Translations under genes and position numbers: made by a program
The notes under the pieces: model-generated
Database searches by the model: none
Seen by the model: only the letters and a program-made list of their open reading frames with translations
Told to the model about the DNA's origin: nothing
DNA from: an uncultured bacterium
GTDB taxonomy: Bacteria > Krumholzibacteriota > Krumholzibacteriia > LZORAL124-64-63
DNA: 39,832 nucleotides
Assembly: GCA_903912525.1 (NCBI GenBank)
Contig: CAIWHK010000045.1
Location: forward strand, 1 to 39,832
Direction of reading: 5' to 3'
In this document: piece after piece, positions 62-8,441 of the stretch
Position numbering within the stretch: position 1 is the stretch's first letter
Layout: each line of letters begins with the position of its first letter

Positions 62-2671
62 CTACTTGACGAGCGTCATCCGCCCCGATCCCATGAACCC
101 GGCCGTCGAGAGCCTGTAGAAGTAGGCGCCGGACGCGGAAGCGCGCCCTGCGTCGTCGCGCCCATCCCAGGTCACGGCGTGCGGACCGGCGGCCTGCGCG
201 CCGTCGAGCAGCGTGCGGACCAGGCGGCCATCGACCGTGTAGATCGACAGCGTCGCCTGCCCGGCCGTGCCGAGCGTGAAGGCGATCGTCGTCGACGGGT
301 TGAACGGGTTGGGGTACGCCGCGCCGAGCGCCGTCATGGCCGCGGGCACCTCGCCGGGCACGCCGCTGACGACCGGCGCCTGGCCCTCGGTCACCTCGAG
401 GGTGATGTCCGCGGGCTTCGGCGTGACGACCTGGTGCAGGCCGCTCGGCCAGTAGATGTCGATCTGGTCGACGCCCGCGGCCGCGCCCAGGCCGAAGTGC
501 TGCTCGAGCACCGCGCCCAGTCCGCCGCCGCTGGTCAGCAGGCGCGACTGTGCGACGCCGCCGGTCGTGAGCACCACGCGGGCGCCGATGGCGCTCGTGT
601 TGGCCCCGCCGCCGGTCAGGCGCAGCTTGAACCAGTGGTTGGTCGTCACCAGGCCGTTGGTCAGCACCACGTTGGGCAGCGCCGTGCGCGGGATGAAGAG
701 GTCGACGCGGCCGTCGCCGTCCAGGTCGCCGGCGGCGATACCGTTGCTGCCGGCCACGGTCTCGTCGATGCCCGCCTGCACGCGCGTGAAGCCGCCCGCG
801 CCGTCGCCCAGCAGGACCAGGTCCGGCTCGTTGTAGCGGGGCACGTACAGGTCCAGCCTGCCGTCGTTGTCGAGGTCGGCCCAGGAGACGCCGCGCGCAT
901 GGCCGGCATCGCCCAGGTTCGGTCCCGTGACGAGTTCGAAATGGAAGGGTGAGATGCAGCGGTACAGCTTGTCGGCGCCGCCGTCGATGGCGATGTAGAG
1001 ATCGAAGTCGCCGTCGTTGTCGAAATCGCCCCAGGCGGCGCCCGCGTCGCTGCCGGTGTCGGACAGGCCGCTGCTGGGCGTCATCTCGTTGAACCCGATG
1101 GACAGGTTCTGGAACAGCTGGTTGGTGCCGTAACGCCGGATGACGTACGGGTCCAGGCGGCCGTCGAGGTCGCCGTCGGTCCACGAGCAGGCGCTCGTGT
1201 TGCCCGTCGTGGAGATGGCCGACGGCTGGGCCGAGAACAGCCACATGCCGCCGCCGATGTCGCCGAGGCTCGTCAGCAGCGAGTTGGACGTCGAGGCCGT
1301 GTTGTTCTGGAACACGTACAGGTCCAGCTTGCCGTCGAGGTTGTAGTCAACCCAGTTGGCGCCCTCGACCGGGCCGACGATGCCCGCGCCGTACGCGGTG
1401 ATCGCCGTGAAGCCGCCGGCGCCGTCGCCGCGCAGCAGCAGGTTCGCCTGGTTCGCGCGCGTCACGTAGACGTCCAGGTGCCCGTCGCCGTTGATGTCGG
1501 CCCACGCTGCGCCAGTGCCCGCGCCGGTGTCGGCCAACAGGCCGCTCGCGACGTTCGTGAACCCGGAGGCGCCGTCGTTGCGCAGCAGGAGGTCGGCCTC
1601 GTTGTTGCGGACGACGTGCACGTCGAGGTCGCCGTCCTCGTCGAAGTCGACCAGTGCGCCGGCGCGGCTCTGGCCCGCGACGGCCAGGCCGCCGGCGGTC
1701 TGCGCCGTGAATGGGCCGCCGGTGTAGGTGCCGCTGAACATGGCGTTGCCGTGCAGCGGGATCGTGACGACCTGCGGCGCGGCCGGGCCCGTCCAGTAGG
1801 GCGTCGGGTCCCAGGTCACGGTGTACTGGCCGGCGTCGAACAGCTGCAGGACGGCGTCGCCGCTGCCTGTGCGCGTTTCGAACGGTCCGACCATGTGCCA
1901 CGTCGCCGCCACGCCGTTCGGCTCGCAGTCCATGGTCACGGTGGCCTCGTACGCGGGGGTGGCCTTGATGGCCTGCAGCATCGCCTTCGTCGTGTTGTTC
2001 TGGACGAACATGATGAGGCTGAGCTGGCTGGTGCTCCAGGCCGGGTCCAGCGTGAAGGTGCGCGTGACCTGCTGCGACTGGCCGCTCGACACCGGCGTGA
2101 ACACCTCGGAGGCGAGCGTCGACATCACCAGGTTCGGATGGCCGTGGTAGCCGTCCAGGCAGACCAGGAACTGGACCGTGTTGCCGGCCGCGACCGCTGC
2201 GGTGAGCGACGCGTCGAGCGTGATCGTCACCTGGTCGCCGCGGATCTTGTAGGAAGCGGCCATCTGCACGGGGCTGCTGACCGTGCGCCGGGCCGCGACC
2301 GTCGGCTGGTACGTCGAGTACATGCTGCCGCTGGCGGCGCCGCCGACGTAGGGAGAGACGCCGTCGAAAATCACCGACGGCGTGCCGCTGAAGCCGTAGC
2401 TGCTGAAGCGCGCGCTGCCGAGCGGCGTCGTGTAGGGGTTGGTCAGGTAGTACGTCACGCCCAGGAAACCCGAAGTGCCGTACGTCGTCGTCAGATCATT
2501 GAATCCCGCGACCGCGGAAGGGCAGTAGGGTCAGCCATCGGCCGACCAGAGTTCACCGATGACGGTGCGGTCGGCGCAGTAGGCGAAGTTGGCGGTGCCC
2601 AGGGCGATCAACATGGCGAGCGTGGCGAGCAGGCCGGCGATGCGCGCGCGGCGGCAGGCAGGGGACGTCAT
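62..2671 (-). CDS. Candidate selenoprotein: exported Trx-like (Omp28-type) / FG-GAP / ASPIC-UnbV / FlgD-Ig protein with in-frame UGA
   Basis: 869 residues if the TGA at 2531-2533 (codon 47) is read as selenocysteine. The start at 2671 has a strong SD (AAGGAG, 9 nt away) and a clear signal peptide (basic Arg7-Arg10, hydrophobic 11-30, cleavage near residue 33). The mature start contains GELWSADG-U-P-Y-C-P, the place where Omp28-like and other thioredoxin-fold proteins have a CxxC motif, and a cis-Pro loop (GTPS) follows near residue 98. Next come a beta-rich region, FG-GAP/VCBS repeats with Asp-rich calcium loops (about 330-680), an ASPIC/UnbV domain (about 690-765) and a FlgD-like Ig domain starting YPNPFNP (784-869), probably a cell-surface sorting tail. 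A conventional call would begin at GTG 2458, which has no SD and cuts the Trx fold. The redox role is inferred. Alternatives are a nonsense mutation or a sequencing error at a Cys codon. Confidence 0.75.
2504..2533 (-). promoter_or_regulatory. Candidate bacterial SECIS element (UGA plus downstream hairpin)
   Basis: In the mRNA the UGA (2533-2531) is followed by 17 nt and then a GGUC apical loop (2513-2510). The loop is closed by a 6-bp stem, UUCCGC (2519-2514) with GCGGGA (2509-2504), including one U-G pair. As I recall the bacterial rule, an apical loop with an early G lies about 16-37 nt after the UGA on a stem of at least 4 bp; E. coli fdhF has GGUC in its loop at similar spacing. The element lies wholly within coding sequence, as expected for bacterial SECIS. 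Confidence 0.6.
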
Positions 2672-2744
2672 GATTCGGGACTCCTTGCTGAGGCGTCGTG
2701 ATCGGCGGGCCTTTCAGCCAAGGCCCACGGAGTTGCCGGTCATT

Positions 2745-2857: not shown

Positions 2858-3139
2858 CTACTGGGCGCCGACCAGCTCGGCCGCCACCAGCTGCGAGGCG
2901 AACTCGCAGAGGTCCTTTGCGGCGGCGTCGAGGGTGACGTCGTATTCGCTGACGATGGCCTCGGCGACCTGCCGCAGCGTGCGCTGCCCGTCCAGCTGCC
3001 GCCAGACGAACGCGCCGAGTTCCTCGAGCGTGTGCGTGGCCGTGCCCGTGGGGGCCATGATGATGAGCCCGTCGCCGATCTCCCGCACGGGGCAGGCGGC
3101 GTTCGGGACCAGGATCGTGTCGAGGTTGATGGACTTCAC
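2858..3139 (-). CDS. PqqD family protein (RRE-type peptide-binding fold)
   Basis: 93 residues from a GTG preceded by GAGGTGA at good spacing; an upstream GTG at 3166 is in frame but lacks an SD. The layout matches stand-alone PqqD: an N-terminal beta hairpin (VREIGDGLIIMAP), then a winged-helix part with the family pattern A-F-V-W-R-Q-L-D-G, R-T-L-R-Q-V and a final helix containing ASQLVAAELV. PqqD-fold proteins bind leader peptides of ribosomally made peptides for their modifying enzymes. The gene starts 31 bp after the HPr-kinase-like gene on the same strand, so the two are probably co-transcribed. Its peptide partner is not visible here. The family call is firm; a role in peptide modification is inferred from the neighbours. 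Confidence 0.8.
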   Translation of the reverse strand: MKSINLDTILVPNAACPVREIGDGLIIMAPTGTATHTLEELGAFVWRQLDGQRTLRQVAEAIVSEYDVTLDAAAKDLCEFASQLVAAELVGAQ

Positions 3140-3169
3140 GGCGTCACCTCGCGCGTGCAACGGCACGGT

Positions 3170-4072
3170 TCAGGACAGTGGCGGCAATCCGAAAGCGCCT
3201 TCCAGAGTCTTCCAGAATCCCGGATCGGGCGTAAACCGCAATACCTTGAGTGTTGTGTTGGCCGCGATCGCCTGCGCGGCGTCGACCATCCGGGGCAGCG
3301 TATCGGGCCCCGGGATCTCGTCCAGGCCCACCGGCGGCACGATCTCGCCGGCCAGGACGGCCACCGCGGCGGACTCTGGCGCATCGCCAAGTTCATGGGC
3401 CGGGCCATGTTCCAGCAGCAGGACAGCGCGCAGGGGAGCACTGCCGGGCCGCTTCTCGCGGAACGTGCCGTTGAACGGAGTGCCGACCAGCTCCCAGCCC
3501 CCGGCTCCACCAGCCAGAGGCCGCACCAGGCTCATCTCGTCGCCCAGCACGTGCCGGCCCGGGCTGTTGGCCGCCACGGTCGACTTGCCCGAGCCCGAGG
3601 GCCCCACGAACAGGAATCCCTGTCCGTCGACGATAACGGAAGACGAGTGCACCAGCCACGCCGGGCGCCCCATCCGCGCGCGCGCCGAGATGTGCGCCTG
3701 GTACAACACCTGTTCGAAGATGCGCGTCAACCGCCCGGTCAGCAGCGCGGCCTTCACGCGCACCTCGCCGCGGCCGGTCAACGGGTCGAACCGCCCGGTG
3801 ATGAGCCCGTCCGAAATATCGAAGGCGCCGTCACCGAGCAGGCGCTTGGTCGTCAGCAGCGAGCGCGGGAACGAAGGCTGGTCGTCGTGCGCGATCACGG
3901 TGATTTCCAGGGAGATGACCGGCTCGCCGGCGCCCGCCGGCACGCTCGGGCGGTCGAACCACATGGCCAATCCCTCGGCCAGGCCGGGCTGAGGGCAGCG
4001 CAGGGCGAAGAGGGCGTCACCGACTTCCAGGCGGTACTCCGGCACGGGCGAAGACAGCGGCGATGCGGTCAT
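3170..4072 (-). CDS. HPr kinase/phosphorylase-like ATPase (HprK-related kinase)
   Basis: 300 residues. A Walker A loop, GPSGSGKST, lies at about 157-165, followed by LGDEMSL at about 177-183, where HprK has its acidic catalytic segment. The N-terminal 130 residues are unlike the HprK regulatory domain. Members of this group occur next to PqqD and nucleotidyltransferase genes; some (ThcoK type, paeninodin clusters) phosphorylate lasso peptides. ATG 4072 was chosen because it follows the upstream gene's stop by 4 bp and has an SD-like CGGAG. The frame is open upstream to 4276, but that part overlaps the peptidase gene. The substrate is unknown. Confidence 0.75.
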   Translation of the reverse strand: MTASPLSSPVPEYRLEVGDALFALRCPQPGLAEGLAMWFDRPSVPAGAGEPVISLEITVIAHDDQPSFPRSLLTTKRLLGDGAFDISDGLITGRFDPLTGRGEVRVKAALLTGRLTRIFEQVLYQAHISARARMGRPAWLVHSSSVIVDGQGFLFVGPSGSGKSTVAANSPGRHVLGDEMSLVRPLAGGAGGWELVGTPFNGTFREKRPGSAPLRAVLLLEHGPAHELGDAPESAAVAVLAGEIVPPVGLDEIPGPDTLPRMVDAAQAIAANTTLKVLRFTPDPGFWKTLEGAFGLPPLS

Positions 4073-4076
4073 GCGA

Positions 4077-4604
4077 TCAGACTCCGGGATCGAAGGTGGT
4101 GGGCGTTGCGGTCCTGAACCGCGCCCGCAGGTGCCGCCACAGGCCGCGCAGGGCGCGACGCCGCGAGTGCGGGGACGGCAGTTCGGCGCCGTCCTGACCC
4201 GTCGCTCCGATGACCAGGCCCACGATGCGATCGGCCGGCTGCCAGGCGCCGCGCCCGTTGGCGTCGCCGTGCTCAAGCAGCCACCGCTGCCCGCTCCGCC
4301 GTCGCCAGCCGAGCACGCGGTGGGCCACCAGGCGCTCGTCCAGCGCCAGCACCACGACGTCGCCCACCCGGGCCCGCGCGGCGCCGAGCGGGTCGATGAC
4401 CAGTTCGCAGCCGCACGGAAGCGACGGCGCCATGCTGCCGCTGAGCATCGGCAGCCGCACCAGGGCGCCCGGCACCGGGGCGTGGCCGGTCAGCGCCAGC
4501 CAGGCATCAAGCTGCGCGGCGCGACGCGCCAAATCGGCGGCAGCCGCGCGGCCGGCGGCGTCGAGGGCGGCGAACGAGTCGGTTGCGTGAGCGTCGGTGG
4601 TCAT
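4077..4604 (-). CDS. S26-type signal-peptidase-like protein (S24/S26 family)
   Basis: 175 residues. LSGSMAPSLPCGCELVI (54-70) is the S26 nucleophile box with Ser57. GDVVVL (81-86), LVAHRVLG (92-99) with His95, and HGDAN (112-116) follow in the order of the SipW/SEC11-like Ser-His branch. No membrane anchor precedes the catalytic box; the N-terminus is an Ala-rich amphipathic helix. The protein may therefore be a soluble processing protease or an inactive relative. It is the first gene of the minus-strand unit with the HPr-kinase-like and PqqD genes, and is divergent from the nucleotidyltransferase. The start at ATG 4604 is preceded by GGGG only. Confidence 0.65.
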   Translation of the reverse strand: MTTDAHATDSFAALDAAGRAAAADLARRAAQLDAWLALTGHAPVPGALVRLPMLSGSMAPSLPCGCELVIDPLGAARARVGDVVVLALDERLVAHRVLGWRRRSGQRWLLEHGDANGRGAWQPADRIVGLVIGATGQDGAELPSPHSRRRALRGLWRHLRARFRTATPTTFDPGV

Positions 4605-4764
4605 GGCCCCGTGATTGCAATTGTGGGAAGCCCGGGCACACGCCGGGTGGCCGGACAGCGAAGTTGCGCATCCCCTTCGCGCCGGCAAATGTTAACACAA
4701 CCGGCGGCGACGGCACCTTCTTTGGCATAGTGTGGGACGCGCAGGCACTAACGAGGTCGGCTCG

Positions 4765-5922
4765 ATGGCTCGCTCGCTTGAACAGCAATACCTGATCGAT
4801 CTGTCCCACGCCTGGGCAAAAGGTGCCGCCGGCCCGGTGCCGGCGCCGCCGGGGATCGACCCCGTCGCCGTCCGGTCGATGCTCGAGGCGCACAACGTCG
4901 AGGTGATCCTCGGCGCGCTGCTGCCCGAGGCGTTCAAGGACGAGGCGTTCAACCGCCAGGTCGAGGCCTCGCGGGGCCGTTCGATCGATCTGCTTCTGGA
5001 GTGCGAACGCATCCTGCCGCTGATCGGCCGCCACGCCGAGCGCCCCGTGCTGCTGAAGGGCGCCGCCCTGGCGCTGCGCTCTTACCGCGAGCCCGGCCAG
5101 CGCTGGTTCATGGACCTGGACCTGCTGGTGCCGCGGGCCGCCGTCCGGGCCGCCTGTCAGGAGCTCGAGACCGCCGGCTACCGCCCCCTGCCGGGCGGGC
5201 GCGACCCGAAGTTCTACGAGAAGTACCACCTGCACCGGGTCCTGCTGGGCCCGGCCGGCGCCTGTGTCGAGCTGCACTGGGACCTGACGGTGCCCGGCTC
5301 GGTCTACCATCTGTCGCCAACCGGGGTGATCGCCCGCGCCAAGCCCGACCGGTTGGGGCGCCAGCCGGTGTGGCGCCCGTGCCCGGTCGACCAGATCCTG
5401 CACGCGACCTACCAGAACATCGCCGACGGCTACCTGGACCTGCGTCGGGTGCTGGACCTGGCCCTGCTGGCGCCGACCCTGAGCCCGGCCGAGGGCATCA
5501 TGCTGGTGGATCTGGCCCGCCGGACCGGCCTGGCCCGCAGTCTGGCCTTGTCACTTCATCTGATGAAGCATGTCACCGGCGTCCAGACCGAGTGGATGGA
5601 CGACCTGGATCATGACCTGGGCCCGGCCGCGCACCGCCTGATCCGGGGCCTGGATGTGGTCGGCGGCTGCCTGGAGCGGCGGGCCCGTGACGTCCCCGGG
5701 TACACCGCCCTGCTGCACCTGTTGACCACACCCCGCGATACCCTGCGCCTGCGGGAAGTCTGCCGCCTGCTGTGGGTGGGCGAGCAGATCCTGCTCGAGA
5801 TGGGGTACCGCGCCGGGGCCCTGCCGGGCGCCGTGGTGCGCTCGCGCGTGGTGGCCGGCCAGGCCAAACTGCTGGCCCGCGTGGGCGGGTTGGCCGTGCG
5901 CGCGATGGCTTCCGCACGCTAA
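4765..5922 (+). CDS. Nucleotidyltransferase family protein (NTP_transf_5 type)
   Basis: 385 residues. LLKGAAL (96-102), DLDLLV (117-122), GYR and the later ELHWDL are the signature blocks of the NTP_transf_5 (PF14907) group, a polymerase-beta-like fold with the D-x-D of the metal site. The C-terminal half is helical. Such genes sit with HPr-kinase-like and PqqD genes in peptide or exopolysaccharide clusters; the modified target is not known. ATG 4765 is preceded by GAGG at 8-9 nt; an upstream GTG at 4732 lacks an SD. The gene is divergent from the peptidase gene across a 160-bp promoter region and carries an internal copy of the CTTCAT-N3-ATGAAG motif. Confidence 0.75.
   Translation: MARSLEQQYLIDLSHAWAKGAAGPVPAPPGIDPVAVRSMLEAHNVEVILGALLPEAFKDEAFNRQVEASRGRSIDLLLECERILPLIGRHAERPVLLKGAALALRSYREPGQRWFMDLDLLVPRAAVRAACQELETAGYRPLPGGRDPKFYEKYHLHRVLLGPAGACVELHWDLTVPGSVYHLSPTGVIARAKPDRLGRQPVWRPCPVDQILHATYQNIADGYLDLRRVLDLALLAPTLSPAEGIMLVDLARRTGLARSLALSLHLMKHVTGVQTEWMDDLDHDLGPAAHRLIRGLDVVGGCLERRARDVPGYTALLHLLTTPRDTLRLREVCRLLWVGEQILLEMGYRAGALPGAVVRSRVVAGQAKLLARVGGLAVRAMASAR
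5554..5568. promoter_or_regulatory. Operator-like dyad, distal copy
   Basis: CTTCAT-ctg-ATGAAG, a perfect 6+3+6 inverted repeat, lies inside the nucleotidyltransferase coding region about 390-470 bp upstream of two further copies. It could be an auxiliary site for DNA looping. The codons there (S-L-H-L-M-K) are ordinary, so a chance match is possible. Confidence 0.4.
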
Positions 5923-6034: not shown

Positions 6035-6412
6035 GCAAGCGAAGTGGACGATCACCTGGGCATCCCCGCCCGCCTGGCCATCGTGGCCACGCTGGCGCAA
6101 GGGCAGCGCCTGACGTTCACCGGGTTGCGCGAGCAGACCGGGCTTGCCGACGGGAATCTCCACGTACAGACCCGGAAGCTGGAAGCGGCCGGATACCTGA
6201 CAGGCGAACGCGTTCAGCTTGGGGGCCGCTCGGTAACCAGGTTCGAACTGACGGAGCGGGGACGCCTGGCCTTCGTGGAGTTGATCCGGCGCCTGCGCGA
6301 AGCAGCTGAAGGTCCGTTCGGCTCCGGCCGGCCGGGCGCGGCTGTAGGCGCCGGATCGGGCGCGGCGGCCGGGATGCCGCCGCGCCCGGGTGACCCTTCG
6401 CGGGTGTGGTAA
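6029..6412 (+). CDS. Winged-helix transcriptional regulator (HTH_34/MarR-like), likely regulator of the BMC operon
   Basis: 127 residues from ATG 6029. The pattern [42 protein letters not shown] and a wing ending in [12 protein letters not shown] is that of small DNA-binding winged-helix proteins (PF13601 type). There is no effector domain; the tail is Gly/Ala-rich. ATG 6029 lies within an operator dyad and has no SD. GTG 6044 has GAAGG 8 nt upstream and may be the true start, which would leave the operator outside the gene. The stop TAA runs into the SD of the rpiB-deoC gene, so the regulator is the first gene of the microcompartment operon. The three matching dyads suggest self-control. Confidence 0.8.
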
Positions 6413-6425
6413 GGAGAGGGAGCGC

Positions 6426-7793
6426 ATGAAGATCGCCATCGGGGCGGACCACGGCGGGTTCGAACTGAAGCAGAAGCTGGTCGAGCACCTGCGCGGCAAG
6501 GGCTTTGATGTGCGCGACGTGGGCACGGACTCGACCGCGGCGGTCGACTACCCCGTGTTCGCGCGCCGCGTGGCCGACGCCGTCGCCGCCGGGCAGGCCG
6601 ACCGCGGCATCATGATCGACGGCGCGGGCATCGGCTCGTCGATGGTGGCCAACAAGGTGCCGGGCGTGCGCGCGGCCATGGCCTACGACGTCTCGAGCGC
6701 CCGCAACGGCCGCGAGCACAACGACGCCAACCTGCTGACCCTCGGCGCGGGCCTGATCGGCGCCGCGCTGGCCGCGCAGATCGTCGACGTCTTCCTGGGC
6801 ACCGACTGCACCGAGGCGCGGCACCAGCGCCGCGTGGCGATGATCAACGACACCGCCGGCGCGGCGACCGTGGCCGCGGGCGGCATTCCGATGGCGGGCC
6901 TGTCGATGGCGGGCCTGTCGGACACCGACATGGCGCGCGTGCTGCAGAAGCTGGAGGGCCTGCTCGGCAGCCAGCACGCGGGCGGCCACCAGGGCTACAC
7001 GCGCGACGTCTTCCACGGCGGGCCCTGCGTGGGCTCGTGCCCCGACACGGCGCGCCGCTTCATCGAACTGGGCGCCCACCGCTTCACCGCCGGCCCGGAC
7101 AGCCCCGGCCGCATCCCCGACGAGCTGGCCCGCTACATCGACCACACCATCCTGAAGCCCGACGCCACGCCCGCGATGGTCGACAAGGTCATCGCCGAGG
7201 CGCGCGAGTTCAGTTTCCGCTCGGTGTGCGTGAACCCGTGCTGGGTCAAGCGCGTGGCCGACGGCCTGCGCGGCACGCGCGTGCTCACCTGCTCGGTGGT
7301 CGGCTTCCCGCTGGGCACCAGCATGCCCGAGATCAAGGGGATGGAGGCGCGCAAGGCCATCCGCGACGGCGCGAAGGAAATCGACATGGTCATCAACGTC
7401 GGTCGTTTGAAGGCCGGCGACGACGACTTCGTGCTGAAGGACATCCTGGCCGTCACCGAGGCCTGCCGCGACGGCGGCGCCGTCAGCAAGGTGATCCTCG
7501 AGACCGCCCTGCTGACCAATGAAGAGAAGGTGCGCGCCTGCGAGCTGTCGAAGAAGGCGCGCGCGAATTTCGTGAAGACCTCGACGGGGTTCGCCTCGGG
7601 CGGGGCCACTGCCGAGGATGTGGCGCTCATGGCGTCGGTCGTGCGCGGCGCAGGGATGGAAGTCAAGGCGTCCGGCGGCATCCGCTCGTTCGACGACGCC
7701 CGGAAGATGATCGAGGCGGGCGCCACCCGGTTGGGCGCCAGCGCCAGTATCGCCATCGTACAGGAAGCCCAGAAGTCGGGCGGAAAGTCCTAA
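6426..7793 (+). CDS. RpiB-DeoC fusion: sugar-phosphate isomerase and deoxyribose-phosphate aldolase
   Basis: 455 residues from ATG 6426 with SD AAGGAG. Residues 1-140 are RpiB/LacAB-like: ADHGG (7-11), DGAGIGSS (65-72), HNDAN (99-103). The usual catalytic Cys (CGTG in E. coli RpiB) is Asp65 here, so the isomerase chemistry or substrate may differ. Residues 237-450 are DeoC, class I aldolase: Asp320, Schiff-base Lys384 in NFVKTSTGF, and Lys414 in KASGGIR. DeoC cleaves 2-deoxyribose-5-phosphate to glyceraldehyde-3-phosphate and acetaldehyde. Between them, an Ala/Gly linker carries an amphipathic helix ([16 protein letters not shown], 166-181) resembling an encapsulation peptide. These are the signature enzymes of SPU-type microcompartments. 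Confidence 0.92.
6891..6920 (+). repeat. 15-bp perfect tandem duplication in the fusion linker
   Basis: ATGGCGGGCCTGTCG occurs twice head to tail (6891-6905 and 6906-6920), encoding [10 protein letters not shown] in the linker just before the putative encapsulation helix. It changes linker length without breaking the frame. Confidence 0.9.
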
Positions 7794-7802
7794 GGAGAGA
7801 AG

Positions 7803-8441
7803 ATGGCCGGTCACAATACCGTCGACCTGCGCGCCTACTGCGTGATCGACAGCCTGCAACCCCAGTTCGCCTCGTTCCAGGCGACGGTCGCGCAGGGGTT
7901 CCTGCCCAAGGTCGGGCAGGCCAGCCTGTTCGTGGAAATCGCGCCGGGCATCGAGATCAACCGCGTCACGGACATCGCGCTCAAATCCACGAACGTGACG
8001 CCGGGGATGCAGATCGTCGAACGCAACTTCGGCATGCTCGAGGTGCACTCGGACAGCCAGGCCGACGTGCGGCAGGCCGGCGCGGCGATCCTGGCGGCGC
8101 TCGAATTGACCGAGGACCAGCGGATGAAGCCGCGCATCATCTCGGACCAGGTGGTGCGCCACCTGGACGACCACCAGTGCATGCTCATCAACCGCATGCG
8201 GCACGGCAACCTGATCCTGGCCGGCCAGACGCTGTTCGTTTTGGAATGCGAGCCCGCGGCGTACGCGGCGCTGGCGGCGAACGAGGCCGAGAAGGCCGCG
8301 AACATCAACATCCTGGAGGTGCGCGCGTTCGGCGCCTTCGGTCGCGTGTATATCGGTGGGGAAGAGAAGGATATCGAGGCGGCGCGGCCGGCGGCGGTCG
8401 CGGCACTGGAATCGTTGACGGGACGGACGACCAGCCGGTAG
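7803..8441 (+). CDS. BMC-T trimeric microcompartment shell protein
   Basis: 212 residues; ATG 7803 is preceded by AAGGAGA right after the rpiB-deoC stop. Two tandem BMC folds are recognisable: the first around residues 8-100 (with GMLEVHSDSQADVRQAGAAI as its end), the second around 110-205 (HGNLILAGQTLFVLECEPAA through GAFGRVYIGGEEKDIEAA). BMC-T proteins trimerise into pseudohexameric shell tiles, often with large pores. This is the first of two BMC-T genes of the operon and is quite different in sequence from the second. No Fe-S cysteine motif is evident. Confidence 0.8.
   Translation: MAGHNTVDLRAYCVIDSLQPQFASFQATVAQGFLPKVGQASLFVEIAPGIEINRVTDIALKSTNVTPGMQIVERNFGMLEVHSDSQADVRQAGAAILAALELTEDQRMKPRIISDQVVRHLDDHQCMLINRMRHGNLILAGQTLFVLECEPAAYAALAANEAEKAANINILEVRAFGAFGRVYIGGEEKDIEAARPAAVAALESLTGRTTSR

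Follow-up and report, generated by a model that had tools for sequence, protein, structure and literature searches.

A probable SECIS hairpin under RNA-level selection in a predicted selenoprotein gene of Krumholzibacteriota

Results

The locus and its product

The DNA analyzed here (the window; 39,832 nt, contig CAIWHK010000045.1) comes from an uncultured bacterium of the phylum Krumholzibacteriota. On its minus strand, positions 62–2671 encode a protein of 869 residues (ATG at 2671–2669, stop codon at 64–62) when the in-frame UGA at codon 47 is read as selenocysteine (Sec), as its translation and 28 further orthologues support. A Shine-Dalgarno-like AAGGAG (2681–2686, minus strand) is located 9 nt before the ATG. 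The UGA itself (2531–2533, minus strand) is the predicted Sec codon of a UPYC motif. This assignment draws on direct reading, on the read-through translation (ELWSADG-U-PYC-PSA) and on the orthologues. In paralogues, the N-terminal Cys of a CxxC motif occupies the same place, and CxxC is present there in homologues such as locus L068 (29% identity in alignment A2).

Several domains were recognized along the protein, all encoded on the minus strand. A putative signal peptide (residues 1–34, end approximate; 2570–2671) was assigned by sequence inspection. It is followed by a thioredoxin fold with an Omp28-like beta-sandwich (residues 30–240; 1952–2584), an FG-GAP repeat region of approximate extent (602–1654; PF13517, 119.7 bits in five stretches), an ASPIC/UnbV domain (residues 694–757; 401–592; PF07593, 44.1 bits), and a FlgD Ig-like/T9SS-type C-terminal domain (residues 801–855; 107–271; PF13860, 48.4 bits; TIGR04183, 32.2 bits against a cut-off of 23).

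The thioredoxin and beta-sandwich assignment came from AlphaFold2, structure matches and a score below cut-off for NF045500. The domain was modeled from 46 aligned homologues, with C written for U (pLDDT 96.0, pTM 0.91). The model contains the beta-alpha-beta arrangement of a thioredoxin fold (strand 8–14, helix 21–39, strand 40–46) and places UxxC, with motif residues 18 and 21, at the N-terminal end of the first thioredoxin helix. It matched 2cvk (Z 10.0, rmsd 2.6, 87 aligned residues). Its top-ranking structure matches were HBP35, 2axo (Z 18.2, rmsd 3.1, 188 aligned) and Omp28. The layout of thioredoxin plus beta-sandwich is shared with HBP35 of Porphyromonas gingivalis (5y1a; Z 22.5, rmsd 2.5, 204 aligned, 14% identity) and with Omp28 (2r2c_B; Z 12.4, rmsd 1.6, 97 aligned, 13% identity). 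The Pfam Omp28 model PF11551 stayed below its gathering threshold of 34.9 bits, with 25.7 bits for the whole protein and 31.0 for the domain alone. The predicted product is an exported Sec-thioredoxin/Omp28-like module joined to an FG-GAP propeller and ending in a C-terminal domain of the sorting type. Its probable role is that of a thiol-disulfide (or related) redox enzyme in the envelope or at the cell surface.

Directly upstream is a PqqD-family gene (2858–3166, minus strand; PF05402, 55.1 bits), and next to it an HprK-like P-loop gene (3170–4063, minus strand, start approximate) with weak family scores. Together with signal-peptidase-I-like and NTP_transf_5 genes, these make up a cassette (2858–5922) that lies just upstream of the selenoprotein gene. 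Twelve orthologue loci were extended, several of them cut short by contig ends, and a tblastn search of these found PqqD often beside the orthologues (7 loci) and HprK-like (5), signal-peptidase-like (6) and NTP_transf_5 (4) sequences nearby. Family scores within the cassette are below cut-offs, except for the Pfam PqqD and NTP_transf_5 models. The cassette recalls lasso-peptide or ScmCD-type maturation clusters; a functional link with the selenoprotein gene is a guess. Further along the window (6390–8441), translations inspected by eye resemble RpiB and DeoC, followed by a BMC-shell-like protein.

A hairpin with SECIS geometry follows the UGA

An 11-nt spacer (CCCUACUGCCC; 2530–2520) separates the UGA from a hairpin that reads UUCCGC-GGUC-GCGGGA on the minus strand (2519–2504). 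Its 5' arm UUCCGC (2519–2514) and 3' arm GCGGGA (2509–2504) form six pairs, one of them a U·G wobble, and enclose the loop GGUC (2513–2510). A previous sequence-only reading of this DNA had described a 6-bp stem with a GGUC apical loop, beginning 11 nt past the UGA. Its coordinates, stem and spacing were all correct, and its figure of 17 nt from the UGA to the loop is exact on direct reading. It gave no strand, which is minus.

According to the Figure 2 legend of PMC13188914, the bacterial SECIS consensus comprises an apical loop of 3–9 nt on an upper stem of 4–16 bp, a G at loop position 1, 2 or both, 16–37 nt from UGA to apical loop, and a minimum free energy of at most −7.5 kcal/mol. The hairpin here combines a 4-nt loop with six pairs, and a register-shifted form in 5 of 29 orthologues has a 5-nt loop and 4–5 pairs. 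Among the 29 orthologues, the loop columns read GGUC (24), CGUG (3) or AGUU (2), each with a G in the first two positions, and the distance of 17 nt is within the published range. The hairpin straddles the published energy limit, at −8.1 kcal/mol with dangling ends and −7.3 kcal/mol bare.

Taken alone, the window's sequence is at chance level. Positions 2480–2533, which the sequence-only reading had proposed to fold, gave a minimum-energy structure that lacks the reported stem and has no significance (−11.5 kcal/mol; z 0.07; 96 of 200 shuffles equally good). Within the first 30 nt past the UGA, a rival fold reached −9.5 kcal/mol versus −8.1 for the reported hairpin; when nt 7–30 were folded alone, omitting the first 6 nt, the reported hairpin was the minimum. 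Equally stable hairpins in bacterial SECIS geometry follow 156 of the 954 UGAs on both strands of the window, while a GGUC loop on at least six pairs follows 4 of the 954, this one included. Together, these values make the single-sequence argument suggestive at most, and single-sequence folding was rejected as proof of a SECIS (z 0.07). Synonymous re-sampling of the window's gene by itself gave p ~0.11. Rfam at gathering thresholds returned no matches over the whole window, so no curated SECIS family reports the hairpin. ARAGORN found no tRNAs in the window. The significance of the hairpin comes from its homologues, not from its own sequence.

The genome encodes the whole Sec machinery

No component of the Sec machinery is missing from the window's genome (4.29 Mb, 97.75% complete), which carries SelA (448.6 bits), SelB (318.6 bits), SelD (352.7 bits, with one in-frame TGA) and tRNA-Sec (67.5 bits, anticodon TCA). 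Of 78 genomes examined in the phylum, 76 gave a match to SelA and 67 to tRNA-Sec. In the order, 35 of 37 genomes have a SelD gene with an in-frame TGA (SelD loci L102–L120). In the two exceptions, the best match was TGA-free (G022) or a fragment (G027).

The selD gene of the same genome (L111, G000:C49:3200-4700) offers an internal comparison. It encodes an unrelated protein, and its predicted hairpin likewise presents a loop starting with GG 17 nt past the UGA; there, a 3-nt GGC loop is carried on an 8-pair stem.

UGA and stem are conserved among orthologues

The 203-residue domain was searched against 38 genomes of the order and matched in 34. Close orthologues comprised 29 loci from 29 genomes, the window's own included, at 40–100% identity. 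L049, found in a genome contig scan, is on the same contig as L021 and was left out of the counts as a duplicate, and L048 was counted with the paralogues. All 29 orthologues have exactly one in-frame TGA, at the same place, with the frame open and conserved on both sides, and none has Cys at the Sec site. Over the phylum, the domain was matched in 40 of 80 genomes; outside the order these were distant homologues only (27–32% identity), some with and some without the TGA. One genome of the same genus (G001) gave no match to the selenoprotein gene though SelA and tRNA-Sec are present, a case of loss or of an assembly gap.

The sequence-only reading had named two observations that would speak against a SECIS, namely UGA-bearing homologues with no stem at this place and a loop G that is not conserved. 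Neither was encountered among the close orthologues: both UGA and stem are present in 29 of 29, and the loop GU is invariant. The stem has the GGUC form with a 4-nt loop in 24 orthologues and the register-shifted form with a 5-nt loop in five. The weakest stems are those of L038, with 5 of 6 pairs, one of them isolated by a mismatch inside the stem, and L042, with four contiguous pairs.

The stem is under RNA-level selection

Covariation was measured in an ungapped 60-nt alignment of the 29 orthologues (A1), a check that the earlier reading had also suggested. The reported stem is paired in 88.1% of cells, with seven cells changed on both sides. Its covariation score (0.139) was reached by none of 500 shuffles (0.052 ± 0.013) and also exceeds those of all slid versions of the stem. 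The outer pair is formed by the third-position bases of a Pro (CCN) and a Gly (GGN) codon and occurs as U-A, C-G, G-C and A-U.

On the protein tree, three independent compensatory double changes keep the pairing: outer U-A to C-G once in genus g8, outer U-A to G-C once in g2, and inner C-G to U-A at the fourth pair once in one g13 species. The register shift has two independent origins, in g7 and g5. In both, the Ala of VAG is replaced by Arg or Ser and the surrounding codons pair one base further around a 5-nt loop (UCCGC-CGUGC-GCGGA and GCCGC-AGUUA-GCGGU). As read from these sequences, pairing was kept by register shift, twice.

A different structure may be considered for the same Sec codon, in which the working element is the fold favored by RNAalifold. 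This fold starts directly after the UGA (CCC/GGG plus ACUGC/GCGGU, with a CCUUCC loop). It has a consensus energy of −7.94 kcal/mol, is paired in 95.5% of cells and is more stable than the reported stem in many sequences, the window's among them (−9.5 vs −8.1 kcal/mol). However, its covariation does not exceed that of shuffles (0.135 vs 0.131 ± 0.005; 150 of 500), its variation being mostly C/U opposite G, and for this reason we set it aside. The fold is also unstable in the register-shifted g7 sequences (0.6, −1.3 and −1.3 kcal/mol in L024, L028 and L030), lacks G at loop positions 1 and 2, and its 5' part would sit inside the ribosome. We consider it improbable as the functional structure.

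Codon usage supports selection on the reported stem. The domain has 92 well-conserved codon columns, and the two most frozen are hairpin codons, Ser TCC (26 of 26; z 19.5) and Val GTC (24 of 29; z 8.0). The other hairpin codons are frozen to lesser degrees (GCG, z 4.3 and 3.0; CCT, z 3.9; GGA, z 1.9). Freezing by itself is not specific, as frozen columns also occur outside the stem, at a Leu (z 6.3) and at the Gly GGC directly before the UGA (21 of 21; z 5.7).

A synonymous re-sampling null was built by drawing codons from each gene's own usage (2000 replicates). At the fixed place, the summed stem was 166 versus 78.1 ± 7.8 expected, a value reached in 0 of 2000 replicates. The fixed location was chosen with the data in view; the free-placement statistic is unaffected by that choice and gave 171 versus 130.3 ± 6.0 expected, again 0 of 2000. 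For individual genes, fixed-place p values range from 0.01 to 0.29, such that the strength of the result is collective. The pooled figures overstate independence, as the sequences share ancestry and there are three independent double changes. Selection acts on the hairpin at the RNA level.

Cys homologues and distant Sec paralogues differ

Two further sets served as controls, 19 Cys homologues and 21 distant Sec paralogues, both motif-search picks from the examined loci and neither complete. In the Cys set, no hairpin reaches the limit of −7.5 kcal/mol (null rate 1.2%); as a control, this set is weakened by its greater distance in protein sequence compared with the orthologues. By bare energy, 6 of 29 Sec orthologues reach this limit, with most others at −7.3 kcal/mol (null 10.6%; summed z −8.2). 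Among the distant Sec paralogues, a hairpin of the bacterial SECIS model at or below −7.5 kcal/mol was found in 10 of 21 (synonymous re-sampling null 24.6%; summed z −3.0), mostly further downstream and with loops such as GUCA, CGUGAU and GUU. The 21 paralogues have no conserved hairpin at the orthologue position. This contrast indicates that the SECIS location characterizes the orthologue group rather than the whole superfamily.

Several paralogues (L048, L050–L061, L066, L070 and L071) form a second, shorter UGA-bearing clade in the same order and class, mostly with the motif SATW-U-xYCP. Their best SECIS-like hairpins mostly place the loop ~24–33 nt past the UGA, compared with 17 nt here.

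Discussion

Direct reading, homologue pairing, codon freezing, re-sampling and the tree all bear on the hairpin at 2504–2519 (minus strand), which on this evidence is very probably the SECIS of a selenoprotein gene. The proposal of a SECIS-like hairpin after an in-frame UGA thus gains support from orthologue pairing, the invariant loop GU, covariation and the presence of the Sec machinery. Because related bacteria keep the pairing despite changed letters, we regard the hairpin as a new, well-supported example of an established mechanism.

Nucleotide conservation at this site could in principle reflect codon preference, translation speed or another overlapping signal instead of recognition by SelB. 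The GGC before the UGA is conserved in 21 of 21 cases, so local conservation is not confined to the stem, and binding of SelB here is itself predicted. Such a signal would nevertheless have to account for pairing kept through different letters and two register shifts with a constant loop GU, and for Cys homologues that do not have the hairpin; we judge it very improbable. Another reading treats the UGA as an ordinary stop codon, a sequencing error or the lesion of a pseudogene, and the hairpin as a chance product of high G+C. It draws on the 156 of 954 window UGAs with equally stable hairpins and the own-sequence z of 0.07, but is hardly credible, being already contradicted by the exact UGA shared by 29 of 29 orthologues with open frames around it, and opposed by the synonymous and compensatory conservation of the stem.

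The closest known counterpart of the hairpin as a SECIS is the SelB-binding mini-hairpin of E. coli fdhF, whose likeness in loop and spacing had been pointed out by the sequence-only reading. The likeness holds: both have a GGUC tetraloop and an in-frame position right after the UGA, with the loop at 17 nt here versus 18 nt in fdhF. The 39-mer that we take to be the fdhF element matched fdhF and was present in 5368 of 5426 E. coli genomes. The stem sequences differ, and the bulged U carried by the 5' arm of fdhF is absent from the hairpin at 2504–2519.

By analogy, a mechanism can be outlined from SelB contacts and the geometry of the ribosomal mRNA channel. With the UGA in the A site, the first ~11 nt past it would lie inside the channel and the hairpin would stand at the channel entry. 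SelB, carrying GTP and Sec-tRNA, would bind the hairpin loop with GGU at its tip, and Sec would be delivered in place of termination.

The protein is distantly related to the known family of GOS_C/Omp28-related selenoproteins. As described in PMC2398784, GOS_C has UxxC in a thioredoxin-like fold, is Omp28-related and contains encoded Sec, and Table 1 of PMC13188914 gives NF045500 as its domain. The protein here shares UxxC in a thioredoxin-like fold, the Omp28 relation and Sec, and differs in its fusion to FG-GAP, ASPIC/UnbV and FlgD_ig domains. Against NF045500 it scores 35.7 bits as a whole (40.1 for the domain) versus a cut-off of 200, which makes it a relative of the family rather than a filed member; none of the 78 genomes of the phylum searched has a match above this cut-off. 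Literature searches found no paper joining omp28 with selenoprotein or Krumholzibacteriota with selenocysteine, and among the matches listed, judged by title and the start of the abstract, none concerned the fusion.

A broader picture may be offered, as a tentative and rather doubtful proposal. The orthologues may constitute a subfamily of selenoproteins that is not yet catalogued and is widespread within a single order of a single phylum. In it, an exported Sec-thioredoxin would be fused to an FG-GAP propeller, and compensatory synonymous changes together with two register shifts would have kept the SECIS paired. Such a protein may act together with the conserved cassette of PqqD, HprK-like, signal-peptidase-like and nucleotidyltransferase genes, in a redox step that depends on selenium and has exported proteins or modified peptides as substrates.

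For annotation, the standard code cuts the gene at residue 46 and would hide the thioredoxin module. As a small collection of natural variants, the 29 orthologues are informative on the requirements of a bacterial SECIS, and what can be read from them is loop GU and pairing, not fixed stem letters, loop size or register. To the GOS_C/Omp28-like selenoproteins, the protein adds a surface-type, propeller-fused design.
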